In this document: one piece after another, positions 3-19,000 of the stretch | Numbering within the stretch: position 1 is the stretch's first letter | Layout of the letters: every line of letters begins with the position of its first letter | Assembly: GCA_029945625.1 (NCBI GenBank) | Contig: JAQSCW010000023.1 | Location: 39,414 to 83,884 of the forward strand | Origin: a bacterium | GTDB taxonomy: Bacteria; Bacteroidota; Bacteroidia; B-17B0; Aurantibacillaceae | Direction: 5' to 3' | Length of the DNA: 44,471 nt | Translations under genes and position numbers: made by a program | The notes under the pieces: model-generated | What the model was told of the DNA's origin: nothing | Database searches by the model: none | Seen by the model: only the letters and a program-made list of their open reading frames with translations

Positions 3-3000
3 CCTGCGGCAACCGCTCAAACCATCACGCCACAAGGCATTGTCACAGTGACTACAGGTGTAAATAGTTTTACCGTTGGGGCACCTGCACAAACCATTGT
101 TCCGCAAGGAGCAGTAACTGTAACAAATGGCGTAAACAGTTTTACCGTAAATGCGCCTGCACAAGTAACCCAAACTATAACACCACAGGGTGCTGTAACC
201 GTAACCACAGGTGTTAATAGCTTTACTGTAGGAGCACCTGCAGCAGTTGCGCAAACAATTGTACCACAAGGTGCGGTAACAGTAACGAATGGGGTCAACA
301 GTTTCACGGTAAGCGCACCGGCACAGGTTGCCCAAACCATAACGCCACAAGGTGCTGTAACAGTAACCGCAGGGGTTAATAGCTTTACCATCGGAGCTAG
401 TTCAGCAGTACCTCAAACCATAACACCGCAAGGGATTGTAACAGTAACTACCGGTGCAAATAGTTTTACCGTTGGCGCCCCGGCACAAACCATTGTGCCG
501 CAAGGAGCAGTAACTGTAACAAATGGTATCAACAGTTTCACCGTAAATGCGCCTGCACAAGTAACCCAAACTATAACACCACAGGGTGCTGTAACCGTAA
601 CCACAGGTGTTAATAGCTTTACTGTAGGAGCACCTGCAGCAGTTGCGCAAACAATTGTACCACAAGGTGCGGTAACAGTAACGAATGGGGTCAACAGTTT
701 CACGGTAAGCGCACCGGCACAGGTTGCCCAAACCATAACGCCACAAGGTGCTGTAACAGTAACCGCAGGGGTTAATAGCTTTACCATCGGAGCTAGTTCA
801 GCAGTACCTCAAACCATAACACCGCAAGGGATTGTAACAGTAACTACCGGTGCAAATAGTTTTACCGTTGGCGCCCCGGCACAAACCATTGTGCCGCAAG
901 GAGCAGTAACTGTAACAAATGGTATCAACAGTTTCACCGTAAATGCGCCTGCACAAGTAACCCAAACTATAACACCACAGGGTGCTGTAACCGTAACCAC
1001 AGGTGTTAATAGCTTTACAGTGGGAGCTCCTGCAGCAGTTGCTCAAACCATCGTACCACAAGGTGCCGTAACAGTTACCAATGGAGCAAATAGTTTCACC
1101 GTGAGTGCACCCGCACAAATTGCTCAAACCATCACCCCTCAGGGCGCGCTCACAGTTACTAATGGTGTAAACAGTTTCACGATTTCAGGACCCGCCGCCA
1201 CCCCAACTACAGTTATATTAGGAACGGGTGCGGTTGTAGTTACCTCTGTGGCGCCAAACAATTTTACAGTTGATGTACCCATTACCACCGTAACTCAAGG
1301 TACCAATATCGCGGTTTCAGGTTCTTATCCTAATTTTACAGTGTCTGCTCTGCCTACACTGGCCCTCAACAGCGGAAGCTTGTTAAGCATCAGTGGAGGA
1401 AATACGGTGACCATTCCCGCTACCAATATTTCCTTAACCACCGGTACGGCTGCGGCTGCAAGTATTTCTACTGTGGGACTCAATAATTTTTCTTTAAACA
1501 TTCCTTCGGCAATTACGCCTACCATTACGCCTTCGGGTGTATTATCACGCACGGCTACCGGAAGTAGTTTTACCCTCGATGTACCGGCCCCTGTATATGT
1601 AGCAGCAACAGGCGCACTTAACACCGGCACGGCCTCGGTAAACATCACCCCTTTGGCAACTTTTGTGGGTACCGTGTTAACGGTGGGTCCAACTACGAAT
1701 ACAGTTGGGATTCCATTTACACAAACTACCAGCATTATTGGTACAGGCGCTGCGTTGGTGACTTCCAATACAGCAGCCAATTATACAGTAGACGTACCTC
1801 AAACCAGTTTAACGCAAAGCACAAATATTAGTATCAATGGAAGTTTCCCTTCCTATACCATTTCTGCTTTACCAACTCTGGCACTTGCCAGCGGCAGTGT
1901 ATTAAGTATTAGTGGCGGTAACTCTGTTGTTTTTCCCGGACTTACTACGATGGCAGCAGCCGGCGTGGCTACTGTTTCAGCGGGACCAAACTACACGGTA
2001 GGTGTTCCAGCATCCAATATTGCCATGACCTTCTCGGCAGGTGCAGCGGGAGTGAGTACAACCTCCGCTAATAATTTTAATTTAAATATTCCTTCCCCTA
2101 ATATTGCAGTTACTCAAACTGCAGGTGCAGCGGGCATTACCACCGTGTCTGCAAACTCATATAATATTAATATTCCTGCACCTACCTATGTTGCCGCCAC
2201 TGGCGCACTTAACTCAGGCACCGCTTCTGTGAACATTACCCAGGCTTTAAGTATTTCGGGTAACACCATCACTTCCGGACCTGCATCCAATTCAATTAGT
2301 TTGTCCTTAATTACCAATACACTTTGGAGCACCGTTGGAAATGCCGGAACGAGTCCTGCTACAAATTTTATAGGCACAACAGATGCTCAAGACCTGGTAG
2401 TGAAAACCTCGGGTACTGAACAAATGAGGGTTACTACCGCCGGCAAAGTAGGTATTGGATCAAACGCTCCATCTGAAAATCTGCAAGTTGAAACCGGCGG
2501 TAATACAGCAGTATCCATTTTGGGAAGTTCTTCCAGTGTGGCGAATATTGGTTTTGGACTTACAGGAGGAAATCACACCATGGGTAATATCCGTTATAAC
2601 AATTCTAATAATTCATTTAATTTATGGACCAACAATACCGCCAACCGATTGGTGATTGATAACGCAGGTCTTGTTGGAATTGGTTTGGCTACGCCAACAT
2701 ATCCCCTACATGTTAACGGAGATGTGAAAGCAAATTATTTGCACGGAGACGTAATAAATGATGCCGGAACTCTTCAGTCGTTACGACTTAGAGGAAATGG
2801 TTCAGTGCTTTTTGTTGCAGATGATAATAATGATGATGTTTCAAGTGGTTTTACCTGGTATAATAATGGCGAAGCGGCTCTTAATATTCAGATGCTCCTC
2901 GATAATTCGGGTAATTTGGGAATTGGAAATGCTCTACCTACACAACGTGTAGATATAACAGGTAACCTTAAATTCTCAGGTGCCTTGATGCCGAATAACT

Positions 3001-5315
3001 TGCCGGGTACTTCTGGATATATCCTCACCTCAGCCGGTGCGGGGGTTGCTCCCACCTGGCAAAACCCGAATGGCCTCAGCTGGGGTTTGTTAGGAAACTC
3101 GTTAACGAGTACTGTTACTAATTTCGTGGGCACAACTGACAACGTGGGTCTTGCATTCAGAACCAATAATGCAATCCGGATGTCGATACTAAATACAGGT
3201 AACGTCACGGTGGGAACACCATCCAATCCTGAACCGGACGGACTATTGAATGTTGTTTCAAATAACGCCGCTGTAAATGGTCTAAATGGGGTTTTTCTGG
3301 ACATTCAAAACAGCAGCAATACCACAAACAACTTAACCGGGATACGTTTTACCGGAAGTTCGGCAGCAAATTGGTATACAAAAACTGCGATCCTTGTACC
3401 TTATACTAACGGGTCTTTTGGCGTGAGTGATATGATCTTTGCCTTAAACAATGTGAATGCCATTGGCGCAGTAAGTACTGCAGATGCGAAGATGATTATT
3501 AAATCGAACGGAAACGTGGGAATAGGTACAACGGCACCTAATTTTTATTCAGGAACTGGAAGGTACCTGTCGGTTAGCGCCAGTACGGTTTATTCAGCGA
3601 ATCAAACAGCAGCCCTTGAATTAGAAGGTTCTTCAATCAGCGGAGTAGTGCCCACCGCGAAACTAGATTTCAATTCAGTTGGCCCTCCCAACACCCCGAC
3701 AGTTACAGGAAGACTGTCTCTATATCCATCGGCAGCCAATGGAATTTATGGAGGTGATTTAGCGTTTTCAACTTATAATGGTTCGACTTTAGGAGAACGA
3801 ATGAGAATTAGCGATAATGGAAAAATTGGTATTAATACCTCGGCACCGGACGCTACACTTAGTATAGAGGGAAGTTTTGATGCTGGTACAGGAAATACCG
3901 TAACCAACGCCTTATCCTTTGCGATGGGAGTAAGCAATAACGTCACAGGAGTTGGTTCGGGCGCTATTGGTTCATTTAATACGGTCGCCGGAAATAGAGC
4001 TTTTGGCTTTGGAAACTTTGTGAGTGTACCTAATCTTGGTTCAGTTGCTTTTGGAGATTGGAGTGGGGGCTCACCTACCACACTCGCCTCCAGTACCAGT
4101 GACGAGTTTTCAGCAAGGTTTAGCAATGGTTATCGTTTCTTTACGGATCCCGCACTTACTCCGTCTCTAGGAGTTTACATTTCATCTGCAGGTAAAGTTG
4201 GCATTGGAACAGCCACACCGGCTGACAGATTTTCTGTGTATGGTTCTAAATTTAGTGTTTCGGATGGGCCACACTTAAGTTTTACGACTGATGAAGATAT
4301 TTATCCTGTTTCTTACATGTTAAATTGGGGACATAATGAACAATGGCTGATGTTTAACGGTTATTATGACGGATCATTTAGAAGCTCCAGTACAGTTGGG
4401 AATTATGCAATAACAAACCAAACTTCCGGATCCCAGGCACTGATTTTCAAGACAAATCAAGGGACAGCTCCCGGTTCATCTATCGGAACTTGGACTAATG
4501 CCTTGGCCATAAGCGGCGCGGGATTTGTTGGAATTGGTCTTGTAGCCCCACTATATCAATTACATGTGGAGAAGAATAACGCCGGTACTGTGGCATTTTT
4601 TGATAATAATTCCACGGCAGGTGGAACATGCTTATTAGCGCAAGTAAATACCAATTCTTTATCTGCAGGTACAAGAATGGCAATTGACGCCCAAACTAGA
4701 TTCGGGAATGGAACCGGATATGGAATTAATGCCACATCTTGGTACAACAGTGCCACAAATTATGGTGTTTACGGGTACGGTTATGGGGGAACTGGAGCCT
4801 ATGGTGTGCAAGGGCAGGCCGGAGGAACCGCCGGAACATGTTACGGGATTTTGGGAAGCGCATTCGGTTCAGGAACGAACTACGCAGTATATGCTTCTGG
4901 AAACTTAGCTTACACAGGAGCTTTGCAAAGCATTTCCGATCAACGATTCAAGGATGACATTCAACCACTGACCGGTGCTCTTGATAAATTGATGAAACTT
5001 CAACCAAAAACCTACAACATGAAGGTTGCAGAATATGATTATATGAATTTTTCAAAAACACGCCAATTTGGTTTGATAGCTCAAGAAGTTGAAGAGGTGC
5101 TCCCTGAACTAGTTGAAAAGGGAGTTAATCCAGGTCCGGTAGACGCGAAAACTCGCGAACCCCTTGGGGAAGAAATTACCTTTAAGACAATGAATTATCT
5201 GGGACTCACTCCTGTCATCATCCAAGCCATCAAAGAACAACAACAACAAATTGAAGATTTGAAAAAAGTAGTCGCAGAACAACAAAAACAAATAGATCAA
5301 TTATTAAAAAAATAA
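3..5315 (+). CDS. Giant repetitive surface fibre protein with C-terminal peptidase S74 chaperone domain (5' partial)
   Basis: The frame is open to the left edge, so the true start lies upstream; 1770 residues are visible. Residues 1 to about 400 are tandem repeats of about 27 residues (24 in one unit) around T-I-x-P-Q-G-x-V-T-V-T-x-G-x-N-S-F-T-V. More degenerate beta-rich repeats follow to about 770. From about 817 to 1525 there are seven GIGxxxP-type units (GIGSNAP, GIGLATP, GIGNALP, GIGTTAP, GINTSAP, GIGTATP, GIGLVAP), with a stretch near 1300-1360 resembling trimeric-autotransporter head repeats. The C-terminus (about 1643-1770) is an S74 intramolecular chaperone domain as in phage tail spikes, with SDQRFK supplying the Ser (1645) and Lys (1650) of the self-cleavage dyad, then IAQEVEEVLPE and a Gln/Lys-rich coiled coil. 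In that family the domain trimerises the fibre and then cuts itself off. No T9SS sorting domain is present. It is probably a secreted trimeric adhesin or fibre; its ligand is unknown. Confidence 0.9.
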   Translation, partial: PAATAQTITPQGIVTVTTGVNSFTVGAPAQTIVPQGAVTVTNGVNSFTVNAPAQVTQTITPQGAVTVTTGVNSFTVGAPAAVAQTIVPQGAVTVTNGVNSFTVSAPAQVAQTITPQGAVTVTAGVNSFTIGASSAVPQTITPQGIVTVTTGANSFTVGAPAQTIVPQGAVTVTNGINSFTVNAPAQVTQTITPQGAVTVTTGVNSFTVGAPAAVAQTIVPQGAVTVTNGVNSFTVSAPAQVAQTITPQGAVTVTAGVNSFTIGASSAVPQTITPQGIVTVTTGANSFTVGAPAQTIVPQGAVTVTNGINSFTVNAPAQVTQTITPQGAVTVTTGVNSFTVGAPAAVAQTIVPQGAVTVTNGANSFTVSAPAQIAQTITPQGALTVTNGVNSFTISGPAATPTTVILGTGAVVVTSVAPNNFTVDVPITTVTQGTNIAVSGSYPNFTVSALPTLALNSGSLLSISGGNTVTIPATNISLTTGTAAAASISTVGLNNFSLNIPSAITPTITPSGVLSRTATGSSFTLDVPAPVYVAATGALNTGTASVNITPLATFVGTVLTVGPTTNTVGIPFTQTTSIIGTGAALVTSNTAANYTVDVPQTSLTQSTNISINGSFPSYTISALPTLALASGSVLSISGGNSVVFPGLTTMAAAGVATVSAGPNYTVGVPASNIAMTFSAGAAGVSTTSANNFNLNIPSPNIAVTQTAGAAGITTVSANSYNINIPAPTYVAATGALNSGTASVNITQALSISGNTITSGPASNSISLSLITNTLWSTVGNAGTSPATNFIGTTDAQDLVVKTSGTEQMRVTTAGKVGIGSNAPSENLQVETGGNTAVSILGSSSSVANIGFGLTGGNHTMGNIRYNNSNNSFNLWTNNTANRLVIDNAGLVGIGLATPTYPLHVNGDVKANYLHGDVINDAGTLQSLRLRGNGSVLFVADDNNDDVSSGFTWYNNGEAALNIQMLLDNSGNLGIGNALPTQRVDITGNLKFSGALMPNNLPGTSGYILTSAGAGVAPTWQNPNGLSWGLLGNSLTSTVTNFVGTTDNVGLAFRTNNAIRMSILNTGNVTVGTPSNPEPDGLLNVVSNNAAVNGLNGVFLDIQNSSNTTNNLTGIRFTGSSAANWYTKTAILVPYTNGSFGVSDMIFALNNVNAIGAVSTADAKMIIKSNGNVGIGTTAPNFYSGTGRYLSVSASTVYSANQTAALELEGSSISGVVPTAKLDFNSVGPPNTPTVTGRLSLYPSAANGIYGGDLAFSTYNGSTLGERMRISDNGKIGINTSAPDATLSIEGSFDAGTGNTVTNALSFAMGVSNNVTGVGSGAIGSFNTVAGNRAFGFGNFVSVPNLGSVAFGDWSGGSPTTLASSTSDEFSARFSNGYRFFTDPALTPSLGVYISSAGKVGIGTATPADRFSVYGSKFSVSDGPHLSFTTDEDIYPVSYMLNWGHNEQWLMFNGYYDGSFRSSSTVGNYAITNQTSGSQALIFKTNQGTAPGSSIGTWTNALAISGAGFVGIGLVAPLYQLHVEKNNAGTVAFFDNNSTAGGTCLLAQVNTNSLSAGTRMAIDAQTRFGNGTGYGINATSWYNSATNYGVYGYGYGGTGAYGVQGQAGGTAGTCYGILGSAFGSGTNYAVYASGNLAYTGALQSISDQRFKDDIQPLTGALDKLMKLQPKTYNMKVAEYDYMNFSKTRQFGLIAQEVEEVLPELVEKGVNPGPVDAKTREPLGEEITFKTMNYLGLTPVIIQAIKEQQQQIEDLKKVVAEQQKQIDQLLKK
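145..1018 (+). repeat. 396-bp perfect tandem repeat inside the fibre gene
   Basis: Bases 145-540 and 541-936 read as identical, and a third partial copy continues to about 1018 before diverging. The 396-bp unit encodes 132 residues, equal to five subrepeats (four of 27 and one of 24 residues). Identity at silent positions points to recent duplication or gene conversion. The period is a multiple of three, so copy-number change would keep the frame. The exact copy number could also be an assembly artefact. Confidence 0.92.
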
Positions 5316-5392
5316 ACCGCTAAAAAAAACCAAACAAAACCCAATTGTATTTGAGTTTTTTTCTAAGCTTTTAGAAACGAAAAAAAACACCT

Positions 5393-8300
5393 ATGAGAAA
5401 TAAATTAACCATTTTCCTGCTTTTCATTTTTGGGCTCACGTATGCTCAGGCGCCTTTACGCATCAATTACCAAGGGGTAATGAGAGGTTCAGACGGAGCG
5501 CCTGTCATTAGCCAGAGTATTGGACTGAAGTTCGCCATTTACCAAGGTGGTAATACCACCACGGCTACGTATAACGAGTCGCAAGGAACTGTTTCTACCA
5601 ATTCATTGGGCTTGATCTTAACTCAAATTGGAAAGAACGGTAATTTGGCAACCATCAACTGGCAAAACGGTCCCTTCTTTTTGGAAGTATTGGTTGACAA
5701 CGGTAGTAGTTTTGTATCAATGGGTCTTCAGGAAATTTTAAGTGTGCCTTTTTCCATGCACGCTAAAACGGTGCCTGCCACATACACAAATAATTTATTA
5801 ACTGTGGGTGGAAATACGTTCACCTTGCCGCCAGCCGCTACCATCACACCTTTGGGCATCTTAAACATGACCAGTACGACCACCAATTCGTTTGTGTTGG
5901 ATGTGCCGGCACCAAGCTTTACATCTGCCGGTCCGGTTACTATTACAGGAACTTATCCGAACCTCACGGTATCCTCTCCAACCGTTCCTCCAAGCATGAC
6001 AGTGACCCCTTCGGGTATTGTGAATGTGACCAATACAGCTTTAAATTCTGTGGTGGTAGGGGTTCCTTCACCTACATTTACGTCGGTAGGACCAAGCAGC
6101 ATTACAGGAACTTATCCCAACCTTACACTGACCTCACCCTCCGTTGCACCTAACACCACAGTAACAGCCAATGCGGTCGGTATTGCAACCGTGAGTAATC
6201 CGGGTTTAAATAATTTTGTGGTGGGGGTACCTCAGCCTATATTTACAGCAGTTGGAGCAACCAGTATCACCGGTGTTTATCCGAACTTAACTGTTAACTC
6301 TCCGGCAGCAACGCCACCAACTTCCGTGTCGGCCAATGCAGCCGGTATTGCTACTGTTAGTTCAACCGGTACTAATTCATTTGTGGTGGGTGTGCCACAG
6401 CCAACATTTACTTCTGTTGGGCCTACTACTATTTCGGGGGTTTACCCAAACTTAACGGTTACCACACCCACAATAGCTCCTACCACAACACTGAATCAGT
6501 CAGGTGCCGTTACAATCACCACTCTGGCTGTGAACCGATTTTCGATTGGAGTTCCTCAATCCACTATAACGGTTTCGACCTTACCGGGAACTCATAGTGT
6601 GTCTACTGCAGGAACCAATAGTTTTAACATTAACGTTCCTCAAACCAATATCACGGTTTCTAACTTGCCGGGCACCACCAGTGTGTCCACCATTGGAACC
6701 AATACTTTTAACATTAACGTTCCGCCGGGTGTTACGCCGGTAACCCCTTCGGTGGTTGGAGCCGGAGCGGCAGTAGTATCACCCACTACCGGAAATAGCT
6801 TTACGGTAACGGTGCCTCAAGCCAATGTGGTATTAACACAAACTTCAGGAGTAGCCGGTATGACCAGTCCCGGAACAAACTCTTTTAATATTAACATCCC
6901 TCCTTCAAATTTAACATCGAGTGGTATTGGAACAGTTACCTCAGCGGGCACAAATAGTTTTAATATCAATATTCCTCAATCCAACTTAACGTCGACTGGC
7001 ATTGGTACTATTACTTCGGCGGGTACCAATAGTTTTAATATTAATATTCCTCAAACTAATTTAGCCGGTACCGGAGCAGCAACTGTAACGGGAGCTTTCC
7101 CGAATTACACAGTAAATGCGCCGGCGGCAACACCAAATACAAGCCTGGTTGGTACAGGAGCAGCGGCAGTAGCTACTTTAGGTATAAATTCATACAGTGT
7201 AGATGTGCCTCAATCCACTTTAACTGCAAGTGGTATTGCTACGGTGACTGCAATAGGTACCAATAGTTTTAACGTCAATGTGGCCCAAACCAATATGGCA
7301 GCGGCCGGCGTTGCAACCCTCGGGGGTGCCTTCCCCAATTATACGGTGGGTGTGCCTGCCTCAAACATTGCAGTGACTACCGCTACGGGAGTAATTTCTA
7401 TGGCGACTATCACTGCTAATAATTTTTCATTGAATATTCCACCTGCCATTACACCCACATTAACGGGAACGGGACTGGCGAGTGTGACCCCGGCAGGAAA
7501 TTCCTTTACAGTGAATGTTCCTGTTTTAACGTATACATCGGCCACCGCAGGTTTAGGTTCGGGAACAAACAGTGTCAGCATTTTGCAAGCGTTGAGCGTT
7601 ACCGGAGGGACGTTGCTGCAATCAGGACCCGCTTCTAACACCATTAGTTTGGCGGCAATTAGTCCTTGGAGACAAGCTGTGGGCTCTACCACACTCACCA
7701 ATATAACCGACAAAGTAGGAATAGGCACAAATGCACCCGCTGAAAATTTGCAAGTGGAATCGGCAACCAGTGCATCTCTGTCGCTAATTTCAGGTGCTAC
7801 GCAAACCTCTGAAGTTACATTTGGAACTACGGGAAATCATATTTTGGGTAGAATGCGATACAATAATACTACCAATGAGTTTAGTTTGTGGACCGGCGCT
7901 ACTGCCGACAGGCTCTTTATTGATGCCACAGGTAATGTAGGTATGGGAACGAACTTGCCGGTTTCAAAATTAGACGTGGCCGGAAATTTAAGATTAAGCA
8001 GCAGCAAATTATATTTGGGAGCTGTGGGCGGTGTGAACAGCGGGTACGCAGGGGTTTATGAAAGCGCAGGAAGCATGGGGATCGCCGTATTTAAAGCCGG
8101 TGCGGGTGCGACAGGGTTTGGTCCAGGTGGTAATTCGCTTGACGCATTATTTATTAAAGCAAATACTGGTGAAGTCGGTTTGGGTACTATAAATCCAATT
8201 GAGAATTTGCAAGTAGAAACAGCAGTAAATTCTTCTGTTTCAGTAGTCTCGGGCGGAACCAATACTTCGGATATATTATTTGGAACTACAGCAACTCACG

Positions 8301-9613
8301 GTCTAGGGAGAGTAAGGTATGATAATTCATCAAACACCATGTCCTTCTGGACCAATTCAACCTCGCGCGCGAGTATCAACTCAAGTGGTCAAATGATTAT
8401 TGGCAATAACGTACCGGTATTAGCCAACACCGGCTTATTACTCAGCCGAAACGGGGCATTTGATAACCGTTTGGTAATTACCGGCGGAGACAATTCTAAT
8501 ACGTATGGCGGCATGATCAATTTTGCAGAGAACTTAAATCACGTGGGTGGCATGAGTTTAAAATTAGATGCTGTATGGAACCGATTAATTTTTACAAATG
8601 ATTTGGCCGGAGCCTCCCCGGTTATGGCAATTGCAGGATATAGCGGCAACTCCGGGGTGTTGATAGGACCGGCATACGCTACCTTAAGTCCTCCTGTAAA
8701 TGGTTTGGTTACGCAGGGAGATGTAGGTATTGGCACAGCAACGCCTAACGCTCGCTTAGAGGTAGCAACTTCTACAGGTATACTTGCCGGTAGGGCACAG
8801 TCGATATTTTATCAAAACAGTGGAACAGGTGCAGCTGTTTTAGCTGAGTCAAATTTGAATGGTACTCAAACCGGCACTACCACTTTATATGCCAGGGCAT
8901 TTTTGGCAGGATGGCAAAACTTTCCACAATCACTAGGTGATATAGGTGTGCAAGGTTTTGGAAACACTTGGGGCGGCGCCTTCTCAGGCGGCGGAACATT
9001 TGCAGCACCTAATACATCAGTTGTGCTTGCGGGTTCGGGTATTGCAGGTGCATTTATGGGTGGTAATGTGGGTATTGGAACTATTGCACCTACTGCCGCA
9101 CTTGATGTGGAAGGAACTATGAAAATTACCGATGGAACAGAAGGAGCAAATAAAGTGTTGACTTCTGACGCTGCGGGTAATACAACTTGGGAAAATGGTT
9201 CTAAGAATACCGGGTTTTTGGCCTATGCCACAGGAAGTCAGGGAAACTTTGGCTCCTGGATGCAATTGACCCTTGGCAATGAGGAATTTGATGATGGAAA
9301 TAATTTCGCGTCCAATGCCTACACTGCTCCATCAACGGGCGTGTATCACTTTGATGCACAGGTTTCGTGGGGTACCGGCATGACCGTAGGCAATTGGTCG
9401 TTTATTTCAATATATAAAAATGGATCGCCTTATAAATACACCATGTCACCAACAAGCATAAATTATTACTCAATAGATTGCAGTGCTACAGTACCACTTA
9501 CAGCGGGTGATGTTATTACAATTTGGGTGGTTCAGTTTAGTAGTACTGCGAGCAGTACTTACAGTGGGGGAACAAATCAGTTTACTTATTTCAGCGGCTA
9601 CCGATTATATTAG
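5393..9613 (+). CDS. Giant repetitive surface fibre protein with C-terminal C1q-like domain
   Basis: This 1406-residue protein begins with a signal peptide (hydrophobic residues 5-16, likely cut after TYA). An N-terminal domain (about 19-125) contains RINYQGVMRGSDGAP, a motif common at the start of Bacteroidota fibre proteins. Residues about 130-720 are beta repeats of the GTNSFNINVPQ type. From about 773 to 1245 there are GIGT units (GIGTNAP, GMGTNLP, GLGTINP, GIGTATP, GIGTIAP). Residues about 1270-1406 look like a C1q/TNF-like jelly roll: YTAPSTGVYHFDAQVSW, then VPLTAGDVITIWV and a terminal YFSGYRLY. C1q-like heads trimerise and bind ligands, so this is probably a trimeric fibre with a binding head. 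It is a paralogue of the upstream gene (both carry a KVGIG...ENLQVE block and a RYNN...LW block) with a different C-terminal module. It lies 77 bp downstream of that gene. No T9SS sorting domain is visible. Confidence 0.9.
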   Translation: MRNKLTIFLLFIFGLTYAQAPLRINYQGVMRGSDGAPVISQSIGLKFAIYQGGNTTTATYNESQGTVSTNSLGLILTQIGKNGNLATINWQNGPFFLEVLVDNGSSFVSMGLQEILSVPFSMHAKTVPATYTNNLLTVGGNTFTLPPAATITPLGILNMTSTTTNSFVLDVPAPSFTSAGPVTITGTYPNLTVSSPTVPPSMTVTPSGIVNVTNTALNSVVVGVPSPTFTSVGPSSITGTYPNLTLTSPSVAPNTTVTANAVGIATVSNPGLNNFVVGVPQPIFTAVGATSITGVYPNLTVNSPAATPPTSVSANAAGIATVSSTGTNSFVVGVPQPTFTSVGPTTISGVYPNLTVTTPTIAPTTTLNQSGAVTITTLAVNRFSIGVPQSTITVSTLPGTHSVSTAGTNSFNINVPQTNITVSNLPGTTSVSTIGTNTFNINVPPGVTPVTPSVVGAGAAVVSPTTGNSFTVTVPQANVVLTQTSGVAGMTSPGTNSFNINIPPSNLTSSGIGTVTSAGTNSFNINIPQSNLTSTGIGTITSAGTNSFNINIPQTNLAGTGAATVTGAFPNYTVNAPAATPNTSLVGTGAAAVATLGINSYSVDVPQSTLTASGIATVTAIGTNSFNVNVAQTNMAAAGVATLGGAFPNYTVGVPASNIAVTTATGVISMATITANNFSLNIPPAITPTLTGTGLASVTPAGNSFTVNVPVLTYTSATAGLGSGTNSVSILQALSVTGGTLLQSGPASNTISLAAISPWRQAVGSTTLTNITDKVGIGTNAPAENLQVESATSASLSLISGATQTSEVTFGTTGNHILGRMRYNNTTNEFSLWTGATADRLFIDATGNVGMGTNLPVSKLDVAGNLRLSSSKLYLGAVGGVNSGYAGVYESAGSMGIAVFKAGAGATGFGPGGNSLDALFIKANTGEVGLGTINPIENLQVETAVNSSVSVVSGGTNTSDILFGTTATHGLGRVRYDNSSNTMSFWTNSTSRASINSSGQMIIGNNVPVLANTGLLLSRNGAFDNRLVITGGDNSNTYGGMINFAENLNHVGGMSLKLDAVWNRLIFTNDLAGASPVMAIAGYSGNSGVLIGPAYATLSPPVNGLVTQGDVGIGTATPNARLEVATSTGILAGRAQSIFYQNSGTGAAVLAESNLNGTQTGTTTLYARAFLAGWQNFPQSLGDIGVQGFGNTWGGAFSGGGTFAAPNTSVVLAGSGIAGAFMGGNVGIGTIAPTAALDVEGTMKITDGTEGANKVLTSDAAGNTTWENGSKNTGFLAYATGSQGNFGSWMQLTLGNEEFDDGNNFASNAYTAPSTGVYHFDAQVSWGTGMTVGNWSFISIYKNGSPYKYTMSPTSINYYSIDCSATVPLTAGDVITIWVVQFSSTASSTYSGGTNQFTYFSGYRLY

Positions 9614-9631
9614 AAATTATAATTGAAAAAA

Positions 9632-10438
9632 ATGAAACTACTCTTAACATTCCATTTATCTCTGTTTTGCTGGATAGCCCTGCAGAGTCAAACCATCAGC
9701 ATCTCACCTCAGGTAATAAATGCTGCAGGCGATCACCGGGCAATCGGGTCCTCGGGTATTTACCTCACCGATAATGTGGGAGAACCCTTTACCGAAACCA
9801 TTTATGGCAATGCCGGTAAATTTATGATCACGCAAGGGTTCATACAACCTGAAACGGTGACTCAGGCCGGCTTTACACTCAATGCCATTCAACAAAGTTT
9901 GCAGTGTTTGGATAAGGAAGACGATGCCTTTATTGCGCTCACACTAACAAGCACCATCGATACGAGTAAGTACCGCGCCAAATATTTCTGGACCCCGTCG
10001 AGTGTTTGTCCGAATAACGACTGTGCCAAAATCGACACCTTAAAACCGGGAGCATACAGCGTTATGGTGCGGATTTCTTATACCACCAATGTGGGGGTTG
10101 TTCGTTTTGATTCTATCCCAAGGAATTTTCAGATTGATCAGGCCACGCAAAATTGTATCATAAAAGTGTTCAGTGGAATTAGCGCGAACAACGACGGAAA
10201 AAATGATTTCTTCTCCATCGAAAACATCAAAGAATTTCCGAATAACCGGGTTACTATTTATAACCGTTGGGGAACTCAACTGGCCGACATTAACGGCTAC
10301 GATAACGAGAAGCCCGAGAAACGCTGGCCAAGCCAGGAAGAAGCGGATAAATTACCTTCCAGTACCTATTTCTATATCATAGAACTTGAAAAAGGAAAGA
10401 ATCCGGTGAAGGGTTGGGTTGAATTAATAAAAAATTAA
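9632..10438 (+). CDS. Secreted protein with T9SS type B (gliding-motility-type) C-terminal sorting domain
   Basis: A TTG lies 9 bases upstream in frame, but the ATG at 9632 begins a clear signal peptide (MKLLLTFHLSLFCWIALQSQ), giving 268 residues. An N-terminal segment with NVGEPFTETIYGNAGKF and ITQGF resembles a short domain often found in Bacteroidota secreted proteins. A middle Cys-containing beta region follows. The C-terminal 95 residues carry the type B sorting-domain hallmarks: SANNDGKNDFF, FPNNRVTIYNRWG, and near the end SSTYFYIIELEKG and KGWVELIKN. This domain directs export through the type IX secretion system. The gene starts 18 bases after the C1q fibre gene and ends 5 bases before the porP/sprF-like gene, the usual pairing for type B substrates. 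It could be an anchor or adaptor for the fibres; that role is inference. Confidence 0.88.
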   Translation: MKLLLTFHLSLFCWIALQSQTISISPQVINAAGDHRAIGSSGIYLTDNVGEPFTETIYGNAGKFMITQGFIQPETVTQAGFTLNAIQQSLQCLDKEDDAFIALTLTSTIDTSKYRAKYFWTPSSVCPNNDCAKIDTLKPGAYSVMVRISYTTNVGVVRFDSIPRNFQIDQATQNCIIKVFSGISANNDGKNDFFSIENIKEFPNNRVTIYNRWGTQLADINGYDNEKPEKRWPSQEEADKLPSSTYFYIIELEKGKNPVKGWVELIKN

Positions 10439-10443
10439 TCACA

Positions 10444-11355
10444 ATGAAAAAGATCTATACCATAGTATTATTTTCTGCTTTTTGTCTCAGAGGCAATGCG
10501 CAGCAGGATCCACAGTACAGTCTTTACCAGTTCAATCAAATGATCCTGAACCCTGCGTATGCCGGATCTCGAGAGGGTTTCTCAGCCGTAGCTTCCAACA
10601 GGCAGCAATGGGTGGGATTTAATGATGCGCCACGCACCACCTGCGCGAGTATTCACACGCCCATTATGAGTAAAAATATTGGCTTAGGTCTCACCTTAAC
10701 GAATGACCTCATGGGTCCGCGCGACGTTACCAGTATTTATGCCAATGTGGCCTACATGCTTAAAATTACCAATCACACCCGTTTGTCGTTTGGGCTAAAT
10801 GCAGGCTATAACCGTTATCAGTTCCATTTTGATAAAATCACCTGGAAAGAAGGAGAGGCTCCATCGGACTTATTTTCAAATCAAACGTCAGGAACACTTG
10901 ATATTAACGGAGGTTTATACTTAAAGAGCAGAAACTACTTTGTGGGAGTTAGTGCCAGCCATATTAATAATCCAAGCGCGTATTCGTACGATGCCGGAAA
11001 AGTGACGTATAAATTGCAAACGCACTTCTTCATCACTGCGGGGTATTCATTTATTTTGGATAAGGATGTTGTTTTTGCGCCAACCGTATTAGTGAAACTG
11101 GTAGACGGCCACATGAACAGCGACATAAATGCCAATTTCTTTTTGATGAAAAAAATGTGGCTGGGTGCATTTTACCGCACCGGTTACGGACCGGGCATGT
11201 TGTTTCAATATTATATTACAAATCCGCTGCGGGTGGGCATGTCCTATGACACAGGGCTGCAGGCAGCACGACGTTTAGGTCCAAGTTTTGAATTGATGTT
11301 AGGTTATGATTTCGCAGGTACAAAAGCAAAAATGGTTAATCCGAGATTTTTATAA
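10444..11355 (+). CDS. PorP/SprF family type IX secretion outer-membrane protein
   Basis: This 303-residue protein has a signal peptide (MKKIYTIVLFSAFCLRGNAQ) followed directly by the family signature QDPQYSLYQFNQMILNPAYAG. The rest alternates like a beta barrel (GLGLTLTNDLMGP, YANVAYMLKI, LRVGMSYDTG). Family members sit in the outer membrane. SprF is needed to deliver the type B substrate SprB to the surface, and PorP binds PorE and helps link the T9SS motor. The position directly after a type B substrate gene and before a PorE-like gene suggests a dedicated partner for that substrate. Genomes of this group usually carry many porP/sprF paralogues, so this need not be the core housekeeping copy. 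Confidence 0.94.
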   Translation: MKKIYTIVLFSAFCLRGNAQQDPQYSLYQFNQMILNPAYAGSREGFSAVASNRQQWVGFNDAPRTTCASIHTPIMSKNIGLGLTLTNDLMGPRDVTSIYANVAYMLKITNHTRLSFGLNAGYNRYQFHFDKITWKEGEAPSDLFSNQTSGTLDINGGLYLKSRNYFVGVSASHINNPSAYSYDAGKVTYKLQTHFFITAGYSFILDKDVVFAPTVLVKLVDGHMNSDINANFFLMKKMWLGAFYRTGYGPGMLFQYYITNPLRVGMSYDTGLQAARRLGPSFELMLGYDFAGTKAKMVNPRFL

Positions 11356-11362
11356 GACGACT

Positions 11363-14095
11363 ATGTTAAAACGATATTTTTATTTGTTCGCGTTTGTGGT
11401 TTCTGTTGCCGGTACCACATTTTCGCAGATCTCCGCCGTATTCTCCCCTATGGAGAGAGCCGATAAACTCTATAAAAACGGAGAATACTTCAGGGCTATT
11501 CCTATCTATAAAAAGGAGGCCCGTTCAAAAGACCCTGCGCATAAACAAGACTCCTATGTAAAGCTGGGAAACTGTTACAAGGCCATAAATAATTATCCTT
11601 CAGCTGAAGATGCGTACAAAAATGCAACTGAGAGTGGGGGAGAAATTGAACCGGAAGTATATTATAACTACGCTCAAATATTAAAAACCAATAATAAATA
11701 CGAAGAAGCAGCTACACAATACGACAATTACTTGAAGGTGAGTCCGAATGATGAGCGTGCTAAAAAGGCAAGAAAGTTTTGTAAAGAAGTAAAATCCTAT
11801 CTGTCGAAGCCCATTGAATACAAAGTCACCAATGTGGGAGCAATCAATACCGAGAAAGCTGAATTCTCACCCTATGTCATGAATAATAAATTGATGTTTA
11901 TTGCAGAGCGCGCCAATTTTGATTTTGTGAGTTATGAGGTGAGTGACTACAGTGGCCAGCCCTATTTTAACATGTATGTTTCGGCCATTTCCGATAAAGA
12001 TCTGAAGAAGGAAAAACCTTTTTCAAAAAATATTAATACTGCGTACGATGATGGTCCGGGCTGTTTGAGCCCCGATGGCATGATGCTGTATTTTACCCGA
12101 TCTGATTATGTGAATAAAAAGAATTTTGTGAATCAGGCGAAAATATACACTGCTGTAAGCTCTGATAAATCGTGGAAAAAAATAAAACCTATTGAATTGA
12201 ACAACGATGATTATTCCATCGCGCACCCGAGTATCAGTTCTGATAACACCATGTTATTTTTTACCAGTAATATGCCCGGTGGCTTTGGCGGTAAAGATAT
12301 TTGGGTGTCGACCCGCACGGGCGAGAGCTGGGGAGAGCCGGTGAATTTGGGTCCTGATATCAATACCAGTGGCGACGAAATGTTTCCATCGGTGCGTAAA
12401 GACGGGGTGTTATTCTTTTCGTCGAATGGTTTGCCCGGTTTTGGTGGATTGGATATTTACACTGCCAAACAGGAACAGGGCAAGTGGATTATGCAGCGCA
12501 ACGAGGGTTTAGATATTAATAGCAGTGCCGATGATTTCGGGATCACGTTTTTGAATGATACAGTTGGTTATTTTTCTTCCAACCGTGCGGGCGGCAAAGG
12601 CAACGATGATATTTACCGGTACGAATACAATCCTAAATCAATGGTGATTTCGGGTAGTGTATTGTTAACTGAGAACATTGAGGATAAAGCAAAGGGAAAG
12701 AAAGTAGTGTTGATGGATGAAAACGGAAACGCAGTAGATAGTACAGTAACCGATGCCAAAGGTTATTTTGAATTCAAGAATCTGGATCCCGATAAAAAAT
12801 ACATGACCTCCATTGATGAAGAAGATCCTGAATTATCGGGGAAAGCCCGGTTCTTTTTAGCGGATAACGACAGCACCATTCACCGTGTTACCGGGAAGTA
12901 TAAGAATAACCGTTTTGTGTTTAAGAACCTGCCGGTAGATCCGAATGGCTTGCCTGAAATGTACACCGAAGACGATCTGGTTTTTGCCGGAACATTGGTA
13001 AGGAATGACAAAGAAGGACTGAAGAATGTGAAATTAAAATTGGTGAACGATTTTGGGGATGTGGTAGAAGAAACAACTACCAATGAGTTCGGAGCATTTG
13101 CTTTCAGAAACATTCCGTCTGATCAAAATTATATGGTATCGGTAGTGGACGAGGGAGCACTCGACCTTCCGGAGGGCACTAAAATTACCTTGAATAACAA
13201 AGTGGGCAAAGAAGTGCGGTCCTTTTACAAAGGGAAGGGGGCTTTCACATTTAAGGTGTTAAATACCGATCAAACCTTGCTGAATGATATGAGTGCCGAA
13301 GATGCCAATTTGGAGATGGGGATTTACGGTTATATGTACGATCAAGACAAACGACCGCTGCCCAATATTAAATTGCATGTGAAAGATGAAGATGGCAGTA
13401 ATCCACGTGATTGGGTCACCACCGATGCCGGTAAATTTGACTTTACAGACCTTTCGGCCGCTAAGAATTATATCTTTGAAACAGATGCCAACGATCCGGG
13501 CTTAAAAGGCGTGGAAAAGATTTATATAGCCGATAATAAAGGTCGCGTTTATAAGATTGTAGACCTATCTAATGGAAAATTCTCGTTCAGAATCCTTGAG
13601 GAAGATAAATTCTCACTTGGAGAATTCGTATTGGTTGATCCTTGGTTAAAAGTTACTGATACCAAAAAGGAAGTGAAGAAGGGGAAGAAAGATATAAAAG
13701 AGCCTGAGCCGGAAGAGGAATCGGAATTGAGTATTACCATTGTTGAGAATATTTATTATCCCTATGGCGTTTGGGAGATTGACGCGGATGGCATGGCGGT
13801 ATTAGACCGTGCTGTAGATGCACTGAATGATTATCCCAAGTTGGTGATGGAGATCAGTTCGCATACCGATTCGCAGTCGAGCTCCGAGTTCAATTTGGGC
13901 CTTTCGAAGAAACGAGCACAAACAGCAGTAGATTATGTGGTAAGCAAGGGGATTTCTCCAACGCGCTTAAAAGCTACAGGTTATGGCGAAACACGACTAT
14001 TAAATAAATGCGCCGATGGGGTGGAGTGCAGCGATGCCGAACACAAGATTAACCGCCGCACCGAATTTAAGATCACCAAACCCATTAAACGGTAA
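11363..14095 (+). CDS. PorE-like OmpA family protein (TPR, beta-propeller, regulatory-like domains, OmpA)
   Basis: The frame opens at 11306 inside the preceding gene, but the ATG at 11363, 7 bases after that gene's stop, begins a signal peptide (MLKRYFYLFAFVVSVAGTTFSQ). The protein is 910 residues. Domain order: TPR-like helices (about 25-150); PD40/WD40-type propeller repeats (about 172-420; for example HPSISSDNTMLFFTSNMPGG); three copies of a carboxypeptidase-regulatory-like beta domain of about 115 residues (about 429-770, each with a DAKGYFEF/NEFGAFAF/DAGKFDF turn); a Lys/Glu-rich linker; and an OmpA peptidoglycan-binding domain (about 794-905, SSHTDSQSSSEFNLGLSKKRA). This is the architecture of Porphyromonas gingivalis PorE, which links the T9SS to peptidoglycan, except that three regulatory-like domains are present. 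No lipobox cysteine is seen. It probably works with the adjacent PorP-like protein. Confidence 0.9.
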   Translation: MLKRYFYLFAFVVSVAGTTFSQISAVFSPMERADKLYKNGEYFRAIPIYKKEARSKDPAHKQDSYVKLGNCYKAINNYPSAEDAYKNATESGGEIEPEVYYNYAQILKTNNKYEEAATQYDNYLKVSPNDERAKKARKFCKEVKSYLSKPIEYKVTNVGAINTEKAEFSPYVMNNKLMFIAERANFDFVSYEVSDYSGQPYFNMYVSAISDKDLKKEKPFSKNINTAYDDGPGCLSPDGMMLYFTRSDYVNKKNFVNQAKIYTAVSSDKSWKKIKPIELNNDDYSIAHPSISSDNTMLFFTSNMPGGFGGKDIWVSTRTGESWGEPVNLGPDINTSGDEMFPSVRKDGVLFFSSNGLPGFGGLDIYTAKQEQGKWIMQRNEGLDINSSADDFGITFLNDTVGYFSSNRAGGKGNDDIYRYEYNPKSMVISGSVLLTENIEDKAKGKKVVLMDENGNAVDSTVTDAKGYFEFKNLDPDKKYMTSIDEEDPELSGKARFFLADNDSTIHRVTGKYKNNRFVFKNLPVDPNGLPEMYTEDDLVFAGTLVRNDKEGLKNVKLKLVNDFGDVVEETTTNEFGAFAFRNIPSDQNYMVSVVDEGALDLPEGTKITLNNKVGKEVRSFYKGKGAFTFKVLNTDQTLLNDMSAEDANLEMGIYGYMYDQDKRPLPNIKLHVKDEDGSNPRDWVTTDAGKFDFTDLSAAKNYIFETDANDPGLKGVEKIYIADNKGRVYKIVDLSNGKFSFRILEEDKFSLGEFVLVDPWLKVTDTKKEVKKGKKDIKEPEPEEESELSITIVENIYYPYGVWEIDADGMAVLDRAVDALNDYPKLVMEISSHTDSQSSSEFNLGLSKKRAQTAVDYVVSKGISPTRLKATGYGETRLLNKCADGVECSDAEHKINRRTEFKITKPIKR

Positions 14096-17534: not shown

Positions 17535-18344
17535 ATGGTAGCACAAGACAAAAAAATTGCCGTATTGATTGACGGAGATAACGCGGATGCCACCTTAATT
17601 GAGCAGATTTTAAACGAAGCCTCGAAGTTTGGAAGGGTTACCATTAAGCGGATTTATGCCGACTTTACCACCACTCAAATGAATGGCTGGAAAAATCAGC
17701 TGAATATTTTTGCCATACGACCCATTCAAAAATTTGCTTATACAAAAGGTAAAAATTCAACCGACAGTGCCTTGATCATCGATGCCATGGATATTATGCA
17801 TTCGAAACTGGTGGATGGATTTTGTATTGTGTCGAGCGACAGTGATTATACCGGCATTGCGCATCGGGTGCGAGAAGAAGGATTGTTTGTGATGGGAATC
17901 GGGAAGGCACATACGCCCGAAGCATTTGTGAAGGCCTGTGAAAATTTTACTTATACCGAGATTTTAGCGCCAAAACAACGTCGGATCGAAAAGTCGGTGG
18001 AGAAAACGCAAGTAGTAGGAACACCTGCTCACAAGGTGACAAGCAAACCAATGCGTCAGATTCCTCAGGAGGTAAAGAAAGGACTCACCAATGTGATTAC
18101 GAAAGAGCCTATTGACATGGGGATTGTAAATAGTGCCTTTGAGATGGTTTTTGATGATATCAGTGGATTGGCCATGGCCAGTCAATTGGGTGCTGCCTTA
18201 AAAAAGGTTGATCCCACGTTTGATATTCGAAGTTATGGGCATACTTCTTTCAGCAAATTTATTGAAGCCCTTAAGCCACAATTTGAGATTGTGGTGCGCA
18301 AAGACAAACAAGGCCAAACGGTGATGGTAAAACGGAATAAGTAA
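17535..18344 (+). CDS. NYN (LabA/PIN-like) nuclease-fold protein with OST-HTH/LOTUS domain
   Basis: This 269-residue cytoplasmic protein has an N-terminal NYN domain (about 6-145). Acidic residues sit at the expected metal-binding positions: D13 and D15 in VLIDGDNAD, D77 in NSTDSALIIDAMD, and D102/D104 in VSSDSDYTGIAHRVREEG. After a basic linker, the C-terminus (about 195-269) is an OST-HTH/LOTUS domain (LGAALKKVDPTFDIRSYGHTSF, SKFIEALKPQFEIVVRKD), which in known families binds RNA, including G-quadruplexes. The combination suggests an RNase acting on specific RNAs. Its last 15 codons are copied into a tandem duplication downstream. Confidence 0.92.
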   Translation: MVAQDKKIAVLIDGDNADATLIEQILNEASKFGRVTIKRIYADFTTTQMNGWKNQLNIFAIRPIQKFAYTKGKNSTDSALIIDAMDIMHSKLVDGFCIVSSDSDYTGIAHRVREEGLFVMGIGKAHTPEAFVKACENFTYTEILAPKQRRIEKSVEKTQVVGTPAHKVTSKPMRQIPQEVKKGLTNVITKEPIDMGIVNSAFEMVFDDISGLAMASQLGAALKKVDPTFDIRSYGHTSFSKFIEALKPQFEIVVRKDKQGQTVMVKRNK

Positions 18345-18648
18345 TTCTGTTGGGCGAGTTTGAATTTTAGGAGTCTTTCTTATGCAATGGTAAATTGCTC
18401 CACTCACAGGCATGTGAAGATTGTTTATGAGATGGTGTATTGTAAGAATTTTAAAACGCGGCCCTTGTGTGAGGCTGAGGGATTGAGGCGGCAGCCTTGC
18501 GCGGGAAAGCAAAACATGGCGTAGCAGCGAGGAGGCTGAGGGCACGAAGCCCCCGCAGCGCACAGGCATTTTGCTTTTCAAACAAGCTAGAGCCGAAAGC
18601 CCGACCCTCCCGTGGCAGGAATAGAGTGGGCCGGGAGGGGCAGCCCCT
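18300..18648. repeat. 349-bp tandem duplication, copy 1 (includes 3' end of NYN gene)
   Basis: Bases 18300-18651 match 18649-19000 at 351 of 352 positions by eye, the only difference being c at 18631 versus t at 18980. The two copies share an AAA junction. Copy 1 holds the last 45 bases of the NYN gene with its stop, about 150 bases of AT-rich DNA, and a GC-rich block. Read on the minus strand from about 18648 to 18520, that block is a member of the dispersed repeat family also found at 35724 and 40771. A perfect 8-bp hairpin lies within it (CCCTCCCG 18605-18612 with CGGGAGGG 18632-18639). No convincing gene is present after 18344. Confidence 0.93.
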
Positions 18649-19000
18649 AAAGACAAACAAGGCCAAACGGTGATGGTAAAACGGAATAAGTAATTCTGTT
18701 GGGCGAGTTTGAATTTTAGGAGTCTTTCTTATGCAATGGTAAATTGCTCCACTCACAGGCATGTGAAGATTGTTTATGAGATGGTGTATTGTAAGAATTT
18801 TAAAACGCGGCCCTTGTGTGAGGCTGAGGGATTGAGGCGGCAGCCTTGCGCGGGAAAGCAAAACATGGCGTAGCAGCGAGGAGGCTGAGGGCACGAAGCC
18901 CCCGCAGCGCACAGGCATTTTGCTTTTCAAACAAGCTAGAGCCGAAAGCCCGACCCTCCCGTGGCAGGAATAGAGTGGGTCGGGAGGGGCAGCCCCTAAA
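18649..19000. repeat. 349-bp tandem duplication, copy 2
   Basis: This is the second copy of the unit described for 18300-18648. It carries a detached duplicate of the 3' end of the NYN gene (18649-18693), which has no start and is not a gene, and a second copy of the GC-rich dispersed element on the minus strand (about 18869-18997). The single base change at 18980 lies just outside the internal hairpin stem. Bases 19001-19131 after it hold only the AT-rich leader of the CLC gene. Confidence 0.92.

Follow-up and report, generated by a model that had tools for sequence, protein, structure and literature searches.

Small type IX sorting-domain proteins encoded next to Bdellovibrio MAT-like fibres in Bacteroidota: candidates for a secretion signal in trans

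Results

Gene organization of the locus

The window (the whole stretch of DNA analysed, 44,471 nucleotides) spans C23:39414-83884 of a 4.12-Mb draft Bacteroidota genome. A run of genes on the + strand codes for fibre 1, fibre 2, a small protein with a type B sorting domain of the type IX secretion system (T9SS), a PorP/SprF-family protein and a PorE-like protein, and continues into a GlmU-like gene; the intergenic gaps along the run, from fibre 1 through the GlmU-like gene, are 77, 9, 5, -50 and 2 bp. The order of the first five genes, proposed in an initial annotation made from the sequence alone, was confirmed from the open reading frames (ORFs) and their domain matches (Table 1). A scan for promoters and terminators between positions 5000 and 16300 gave counts at the level of shuffled sequence. 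Further along the window, at 18300-19000, there is a 349-bp tandem duplication (two copies, 99% matches), which is either real or an effect of the draft assembly.

Table 1. Features of the fibre locus (positions are those of the window)
Feature	Position	Strand	Basis and remarks
Fibre 1, 3' part of giant MAT-like fibre (repeat shaft)	3..5315	+	Open at window edge; signal peptide and MAT-like N-domain upstream, across a scaffold gap, at C23:36868
Peptidase_S74 chaperone/autoprotease domain of fibre 1	4935..5114	+	PF13884 1.1e-17, residues 1645-1704; SDxxxK motif = SDQRFK
Fibre 2, complete MAT-like fibre, 1406 aa, signal peptide	5393..9613	+	C1q-like tip under Pfam cut-off
MATN (MAT-like N-terminal domain) of fibre 2, predicted beta-sandwich	5447..5785	+	NF053851 5.1e-7; AlphaFold2
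Small T9SS type B protein, 271 aa; proposed carrier/anchor	9623..10438	+	Signal peptide, TQGF N-domain, Ig-like middle domain, type B C-terminal sorting domain (CTD)
TQGF N-domain, ~55 aa, common to small fibre-adjacent proteins phylum-wide	9689..9865	+	Alignment A5
Type B sorting domain (CHU_C)	10163..10426	+	PF13585 4.1e-23, residues 181-268; TIGR04131
PorP/SprF-family outer-membrane barrel; proposed cognate shuttle/anchor	10444..11355	+	PF11751 1.1e-65; TIGR03519
PorE-like protein; proposed peptidoglycan link	11363..14095 (ORF open from 11306)	+	TPR, PD40, CarboxypepD_reg (3 stretches), C-terminal OmpA

The fibres and their N-terminal domain

Fibre 1 starts ~2.5 kb upstream of the window. 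A scaffold gap of ~100 N falls within its near-identical repeats, so that its length in the assembly may differ from the true one. The N-termini of fibres 1 and 2 are 48% identical, and a genome search with both of them returned only these two copies. The domain they share, ~130 aa directly after the signal peptide, resembles the N-domain of the Bdellovibrio MAT fibres and is referred to here as MATN. When diverse MATN domains were aligned, the NCBIfam model NF053851 (Bdello_MAT_N) matched 23 of 23, with a best value of 2.3e-10. Scores in the window were below the curated cut-off of 60 bits, being 24.0 bits for the whole of fibre 2 and 29.6 bits for its domain alone, and we therefore class the fibres as MAT-related, apparently outside the curated NF053851 subfamily. 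Pfam offered nothing convincing for MATN; Big_1 was matched by 7 of the 23 members (best 1.3e-4).

An AlphaFold2 model of positions 5447-5851 predicted a confident beta-sandwich for MATN of fibre 2, with a mean pLDDT of 90.2. A sequence-profile search recovered no relatives in the PDB (best 0.36), and structure searches returned generic sandwiches only: the best Foldseek match was a phage XM1 neck chain (2.9e-3), and VIA-align Z reached 6.8. The fibres had initially been described as phage-tail-like, a wording better replaced by relatedness to Bdellovibrio MAT fibres. A phage remnant was considered and rejected: the window MATN had no match in 50,697 phage records, in a single-sequence tblastn search that distant phage relatives could escape. 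The same kind of search of 72,556 plasmid records gave one match, on a 122-kb plasmid of Aureispira anguillae (NZ_AP026868.1:12809-13267).

At their C-termini the fibres are diverse. Among 100 tips (98 of 148 non-redundant ones plus the two from the window), S74 was found in 18, C1q in 5 and H-type lectin (H_lectin) in 4; the remaining matches, one or two each, were to Lcl_C, BclA_C, phage collar, depolymerase and other domains. Of the two tips initially assigned in the window, the S74 domain of fibre 1 stands and carries the catalytic motif as defined for S74 domains (PMC10769870, in excerpt), while the C1q tip of fibre 2 scored 16.6 bits against a Pfam gathering cut-off of 23.7. The fibres are presumably trimeric, with interchangeable C-terminal tips. 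They were said to lack a T9SS sorting domain, and indeed no such match was found at E<=0.01 on fibre 1 or fibre 2. Nor was a sorting domain found on any of the 100 fibre C-termini (Pfam, 1e-3) or on any of 197 MATN ORFs with a complete C-terminus (our own models; some genomes were fetched twice).

The small protein and the genes that follow it

The small protein of the window passes both type B models, TIGR04131 with 52.8 bits (cut-off 35) and CHU_C with 81.7 bits (cut-off 27). We coined the name TQGF for the ~55-aa N-domain of this and other small fibre-adjacent proteins. In the window protein, no Pfam or NCBIfam match covered this N-domain, and scans of 34 small proteins revealed no known family recognisable as TQGF (match positions being available for the first member only). 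AlphaFold2 gave block means of pLDDT of 36-59 for the first 60 residues, which include TQGF, and of 86-97 after residue 60; values this low would be expected, without being proof, if the segment needs a partner in order to fold. In Foldseek, the model matched S-layer, cadherin and other Ig-like chains weakly, the best at 5.5e-4.

Two variants bear on the architecture. In one same-genus relative (G017, locus L088), the small type B protein has 172 aa and is without the middle Ig-like domain, and TQGF plus the CTD may therefore suffice. At L139, the adjacent TQGF protein has no recognisable sorting domain, and its C-terminus looks, by eye, like a membrane tail. The window's genome holds a second TQGF-like match, at a contig end (G000:C4:68-214), any partner of which lies off the contig. 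Giant adhesins of ~1700-4600 aa (L077, L078, L079, L086 and L087) resemble the Ig-CTD part of the small protein over their last ~220 residues; a search inside them found no TQGF, and the retrieved stretches have no MATN gene.

The PorP/SprF gene scored 241.9 bits with TIGR03519 (cut-off 90.55). The window's genome has 17 PorP-family genes over this cut-off, the window's own included, and several of them directly follow large type B adhesins (L003, L004, L005, L009). For the last gene of the run, initially called a PorE-like peptidoglycan anchor, the domain make-up agrees with that assignment, TPR_2, PD40, CarboxypepD_reg and OmpA each being over cut-off; PorE, by its published description, combines TPR and propeller domains and ends in an OmpA domain that binds peptidoglycan (PMC9143113, in excerpt). 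The curated scores do not agree, with 388.4 bits against 600 for NF052230 (PorE) and 427.6 against 620 for the CHU_0125 model. Its start lies more plausibly at 11363 than at 11306.

Conservation of the neighbourhood

Relatives keep the gene order, as do Cryomorpha ignava and members of other families in the class. A lack of conservation among relatives, which the initial annotation had named as grounds for refuting its proposal, was therefore not observed. Of 36 same-genus relatives, 28 gave one locus each with a full-length small protein (L049-L076); the others were G017, with the shorter variant, and seven without a full-length match. The ORF directly upstream of the small protein was a MATN fibre in 23 of the 28 loci; in the remaining five it was open at a contig or locus edge (L050, L059, L068, L076) or interrupted (L071). 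PorP follows in 27 of the 28 and a PorE-like gene in 26, the rest running off the contig (L066, L070). In 16 of these loci a second type B protein of ~740-960 aa, of which the window is devoid, lies between the small protein and PorP (L053, L057, L058, L061-L067, L070-L074, L076); by eye, it contains FG-GAP/VCBS-like and PKD-like repeats.

Loci from other families of this class show the order as well. It is present in L080 and L082; L083 has it with a 793-aa protein reaching from TQGF to the CTD, and in L081 it comes after a collagen-like ORF that runs into the contig edge. In Cryomorpha ignava (L210) the order is fibre, small protein, PorP and PorE-like. Chance does not explain the gene order, given these loci and the phylum-wide and order-level counts below. 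Named isolates with a fibre-adaptor pair are Cryomorpha ignava, Chitinophaga deserti, Niastella sp. OAS944 and Ferruginibacter paludis.

Association of MATN and TQGF across the phylum

MATN was present in 46 of the 148 genomes of a phylum sample, and 60 loci were fetched from 39 of these 46. An immediate same-strand small TQGF neighbour within 500 bp was found at 42 of 62 MATN runs, compared with 19 of 492 control genes; the control counts, here and below, include genes that flank that very protein from its other side. No such neighbour was detected at the other 20 runs, some of which lie where a contig breaks off. The median gap to the fibre, over 43 small CTD/TQGF neighbours, was 10 bp. In a separate set of 79 loci taken from genome contigs, the neighbour was present at 49 of 85 runs (control, 32/252) and undetected at 36, again with some cut by contig ends, and in the relatives it was present at 24 of 27 (control, 39/249). 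These adjacency counts lean low, since frames at some loci escaped the ORF caller; no pair was counted at G190, for example, where TQGF starts right after the fibre. Thirty of the 39 genomes, and 14 of the 19 families, have at least one fibre-adaptor pair.

A search of the same 148 genomes with TQGF gave 59 matches in 35 genomes, all of them within the 46 MATN genomes (hypergeometric 1e-24, kinship ignored), the presence of TQGF there being partly by construction, as alignment A5 was built from fibre neighbours in this sample and in the relatives. At E<=0.01, TQGF was absent from 11 of the 46 MATN genomes. Fifty-three of the 59 TQGF matches lay within 6 kb of MATN, where ~0.6 were expected, and 56 of 92 MATN matches lay within 6 kb of TQGF. 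An independent check was provided by 30 genomes of the order that had not been used in model building: here there were 37 TQGF matches in 27 genomes, and 32 of the 37 were within 6 kb of MATN (0.27 expected). Over all 61 genomes of this order-level repeat, TQGF was present in 56 and MATN in 58, and 66 of 81 TQGF matches were within 6 kb of MATN; of the 15 others, 14 are on contigs without any MATN match, and contig breaks could explain those 14.

Some loci (L117, L142, L202, L212) contain two or more fibre-adaptor pairs each. In family f42, a protein of ~196 aa that looks, by eye, like a rhomboid protease occupies a constant place after the fibre (L095-L102 except L100).

Type A and type B adaptors

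Among 34 adjacent small proteins, TIGR04183 (type A) matched 30 and TIGR04131 (type B) 7, while Por_Secre_tail matched 29 and CHU_C 12, with some proteins matching both types in either case. When 100 distinct adaptors were typed by sorting-domain motif, 57 were type A, 30 type B and 13 untyped. PorP/PorE genes lie downstream of type B adaptors in 28 of 28 readable cases (two loci end too early); downstream of type A adaptors, neither is found in any of 38 readable cases (19 end too early). PorP and PorE-like proteins were accordingly rejected as invariant partners of the fibres. For the untyped adaptors, PorP/PorE came next in four cases and not in four, and five were at locus ends. The dedicated PorP/PorE cassette that had been claimed for the window thus holds as a local variant; phylum-wide, the partner of the fibre is the small protein made of TQGF plus a sorting domain, mostly of type A.

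The translocon gene SprA was found in 117 of the 148 genomes and in all 46 with MATN (P 1.8e-6, kinship ignored), a co-occurrence that is phylogenetically weak because 19 of the 20 SprA-negative genomes listed belong to one family (11 more were SprA-negative).

Co-variation of the fibre with the small protein

Over 94 pairs, the distance correlation with MATN was 0.55 for TQGF and 0.22 for the CTD, and the partial values were 0.53 and 0.13. The difference was seen in the 63 type A or untyped pairs (0.55 for TQGF versus 0.25 for the CTD); the 31 type B pairs showed no separation (0.54 versus 0.51). Taken over all pairs, the fibre N-domain tracks TQGF more closely than it tracks the sorting domain. 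No fusion of MATN and TQGF in one ORF was found in loci L049-L227.

Discussion

Proteins are recognised as T9SS cargo when they bear a sorting domain of their own. At the loci described here, the fibre and the T9SS signal probably reside on different polypeptides, the small protein acting as a T9SS signal and surface anchor in trans; this is our reading of gene neighbourhoods and domain content. The role of carrier or anchor, already suggested for the small protein in the initial annotation, is the best explanation of the comparative data, foremost the conserved neighbourhood; only the notion of a dedicated cassette shrinks to a local one. We infer contact between MATN and TQGF, co-export of the assembled fibre and anchoring, as follows. 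The fibres would enter the periplasm by Sec, where MATN would dock on TQGF, the ~55-aa N-domain of the adjacent small protein. SprA, the translocon of the T9SS, would recognise the sorting domain of that protein. If this domain is of type B, it would next be taken up by the cognate PorP/SprF barrel encoded next door, which would hold the small protein at the surface, and the PorE-like protein would tie this barrel to peptidoglycan. Elsewhere in the phylum, the adaptor, mostly of type A, would use the general PorV route. One reason for a signal in trans would be that the fibre itself ends either in a tip that trimerises or in an S74 chaperone that cleaves itself off.

A bolder version is possible, and we put it forward tentatively: pre-assembled MAT-like trimeric fibres would hitch-hike through SprA on the TQGF adaptor and constitute a class of T9SS cargo with a signal in trans. 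The sorting domain, A or B, would merely select the kind of shuttle and anchor, and in Bacteroidota it would be the adaptor that partners the MAT-like N-domain at the surface.

Several observations count against the signal in trans: the MATN runs and MATN genomes in which TQGF was not detected, the TQGF protein of L139, the phylogenetically weak co-occurrence with SprA, the type B pairs, in which TQGF and the CTD co-vary with MATN alike, and the lack of a MATN-TQGF fusion. In addition, Bdellovibrio, to our knowledge, has no T9SS, and because its MAT fibres are nevertheless surface-exposed, MATN can be displayed by some other way. The small protein might then be an anchor only, secreted alone by the T9SS as a surface receptor on which fibres dock after crossing the outer membrane by another route. 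The gene-order and co-variation data fit this equally, and the surface element that holds the MAT N-domain in Bdellovibrio is stated to be unidentified (PMC10769870, in excerpt). We nonetheless consider an anchor-only role rather unlikely, given that SprA accompanies MATN in every MATN genome sampled and that no other conserved outer-membrane translocator was noticed beside the fibres, among the few neighbours that are annotated.

Operon-like spacing alone can also arise when two separate adhesive surface proteins are co-expressed for regulatory or ecological reasons and never touch. Such a linkage appears improbable, as TQGF stays mostly adjacent to the fibre, in the phylum sample as in the order and its new genomes, while the sorting domain swaps, and as it is TQGF, not the CTD, that tracks MATN. 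Least credible of all, to the point that we give it very little weight, is that the small protein caps PorP, that PorP and the PorE-like protein serve the T9SS core, and that the fibres are bystanders. The PorE-PorP-PG1035 complex of Porphyromonas gingivalis, together with its authors' speculation about a cap, speaks for such a maintenance role (PMC9143113, in excerpt). Against it stand the 17 PorP-family genes of the genome, several of which follow large type B adhesins, so that there is no need to see a core component in this PorP, and the many adaptors across the phylum that sit beside a fibre with no PorP.

If the adaptor carries the fibres, the T9SS surface proteome of Bacteroidota gains a large set of modular tail-fibre-like adhesins. 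Such fibres would be invisible to searches for sorting domains and would have been counted as non-substrates. A concrete candidate for the surface holder of a MAT-type N-domain would also be at hand. The TQGF domain is a short, searchable handle, and the named isolates with a fibre-adaptor pair make the idea testable; the finding generalises beyond the coordinates of the window.

No paper coupling such fibres to the T9SS was recognised in the open-licence PubMed Central literature. Several described systems share parts of the arrangement. The C-terminus of GhpA of Aureispira (PDB 9flp), presumably the grappling-hook protein of the report cited in the next sentence but one, matches the type B profile used here at 6e-17. 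GhpA differs in being a 5898-aa chain with its CTD in cis and no MAT-type fibre. A review describes T9SS-secreted grappling hooks as heptameric (PMC11205867, in excerpt), which makes them a known multimeric surface structure of the T9SS.

Type B proteins use cognate PorP/SprF shuttles (PMC12618676, in excerpt). In SprB-SprF of Flavobacterium johnsoniae and other cognate pairs, a PorP/SprF-like gene lies directly downstream of the type B substrate, as it does here (excerpts of PMC12618676 and PMC9143113). There, however, the adhesin itself bears the CTD, while here a separate small protein does and the fibres have none. A further difference is the PorE-like gene present here, as the excerpted PMC9143113 postulates for non-mobile substrates; in the view put forward there, type B proteins owe their anchoring to PorP-like barrels, and those that do not move are linked to the cell wall through PorE-like partners. 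The complex of PorE, PorP and the type B CTD protein PG1035 reported in that excerpt resembles three of our genes in composition, combining a type B CTD protein (PG1035, by description), a PorP-family barrel and a PorE-type protein. In our case the trio forms one gene run headed by MAT-like fibres, in a genome with many PorP-family genes. Together with the data presented here, these PorP/PorE precedents make a T9SS signal in trans the economical reading.

The MAT fibres of Bdellovibrio bacteriovorus resemble the fibres described here in their homologous N-domain after the signal peptide, their long shaft and their interchangeable S74 and non-S74 tips (PMC10769870, in excerpt). What sets the Bacteroidota fibres apart from them is that they adjoin a protein with a T9SS signal.
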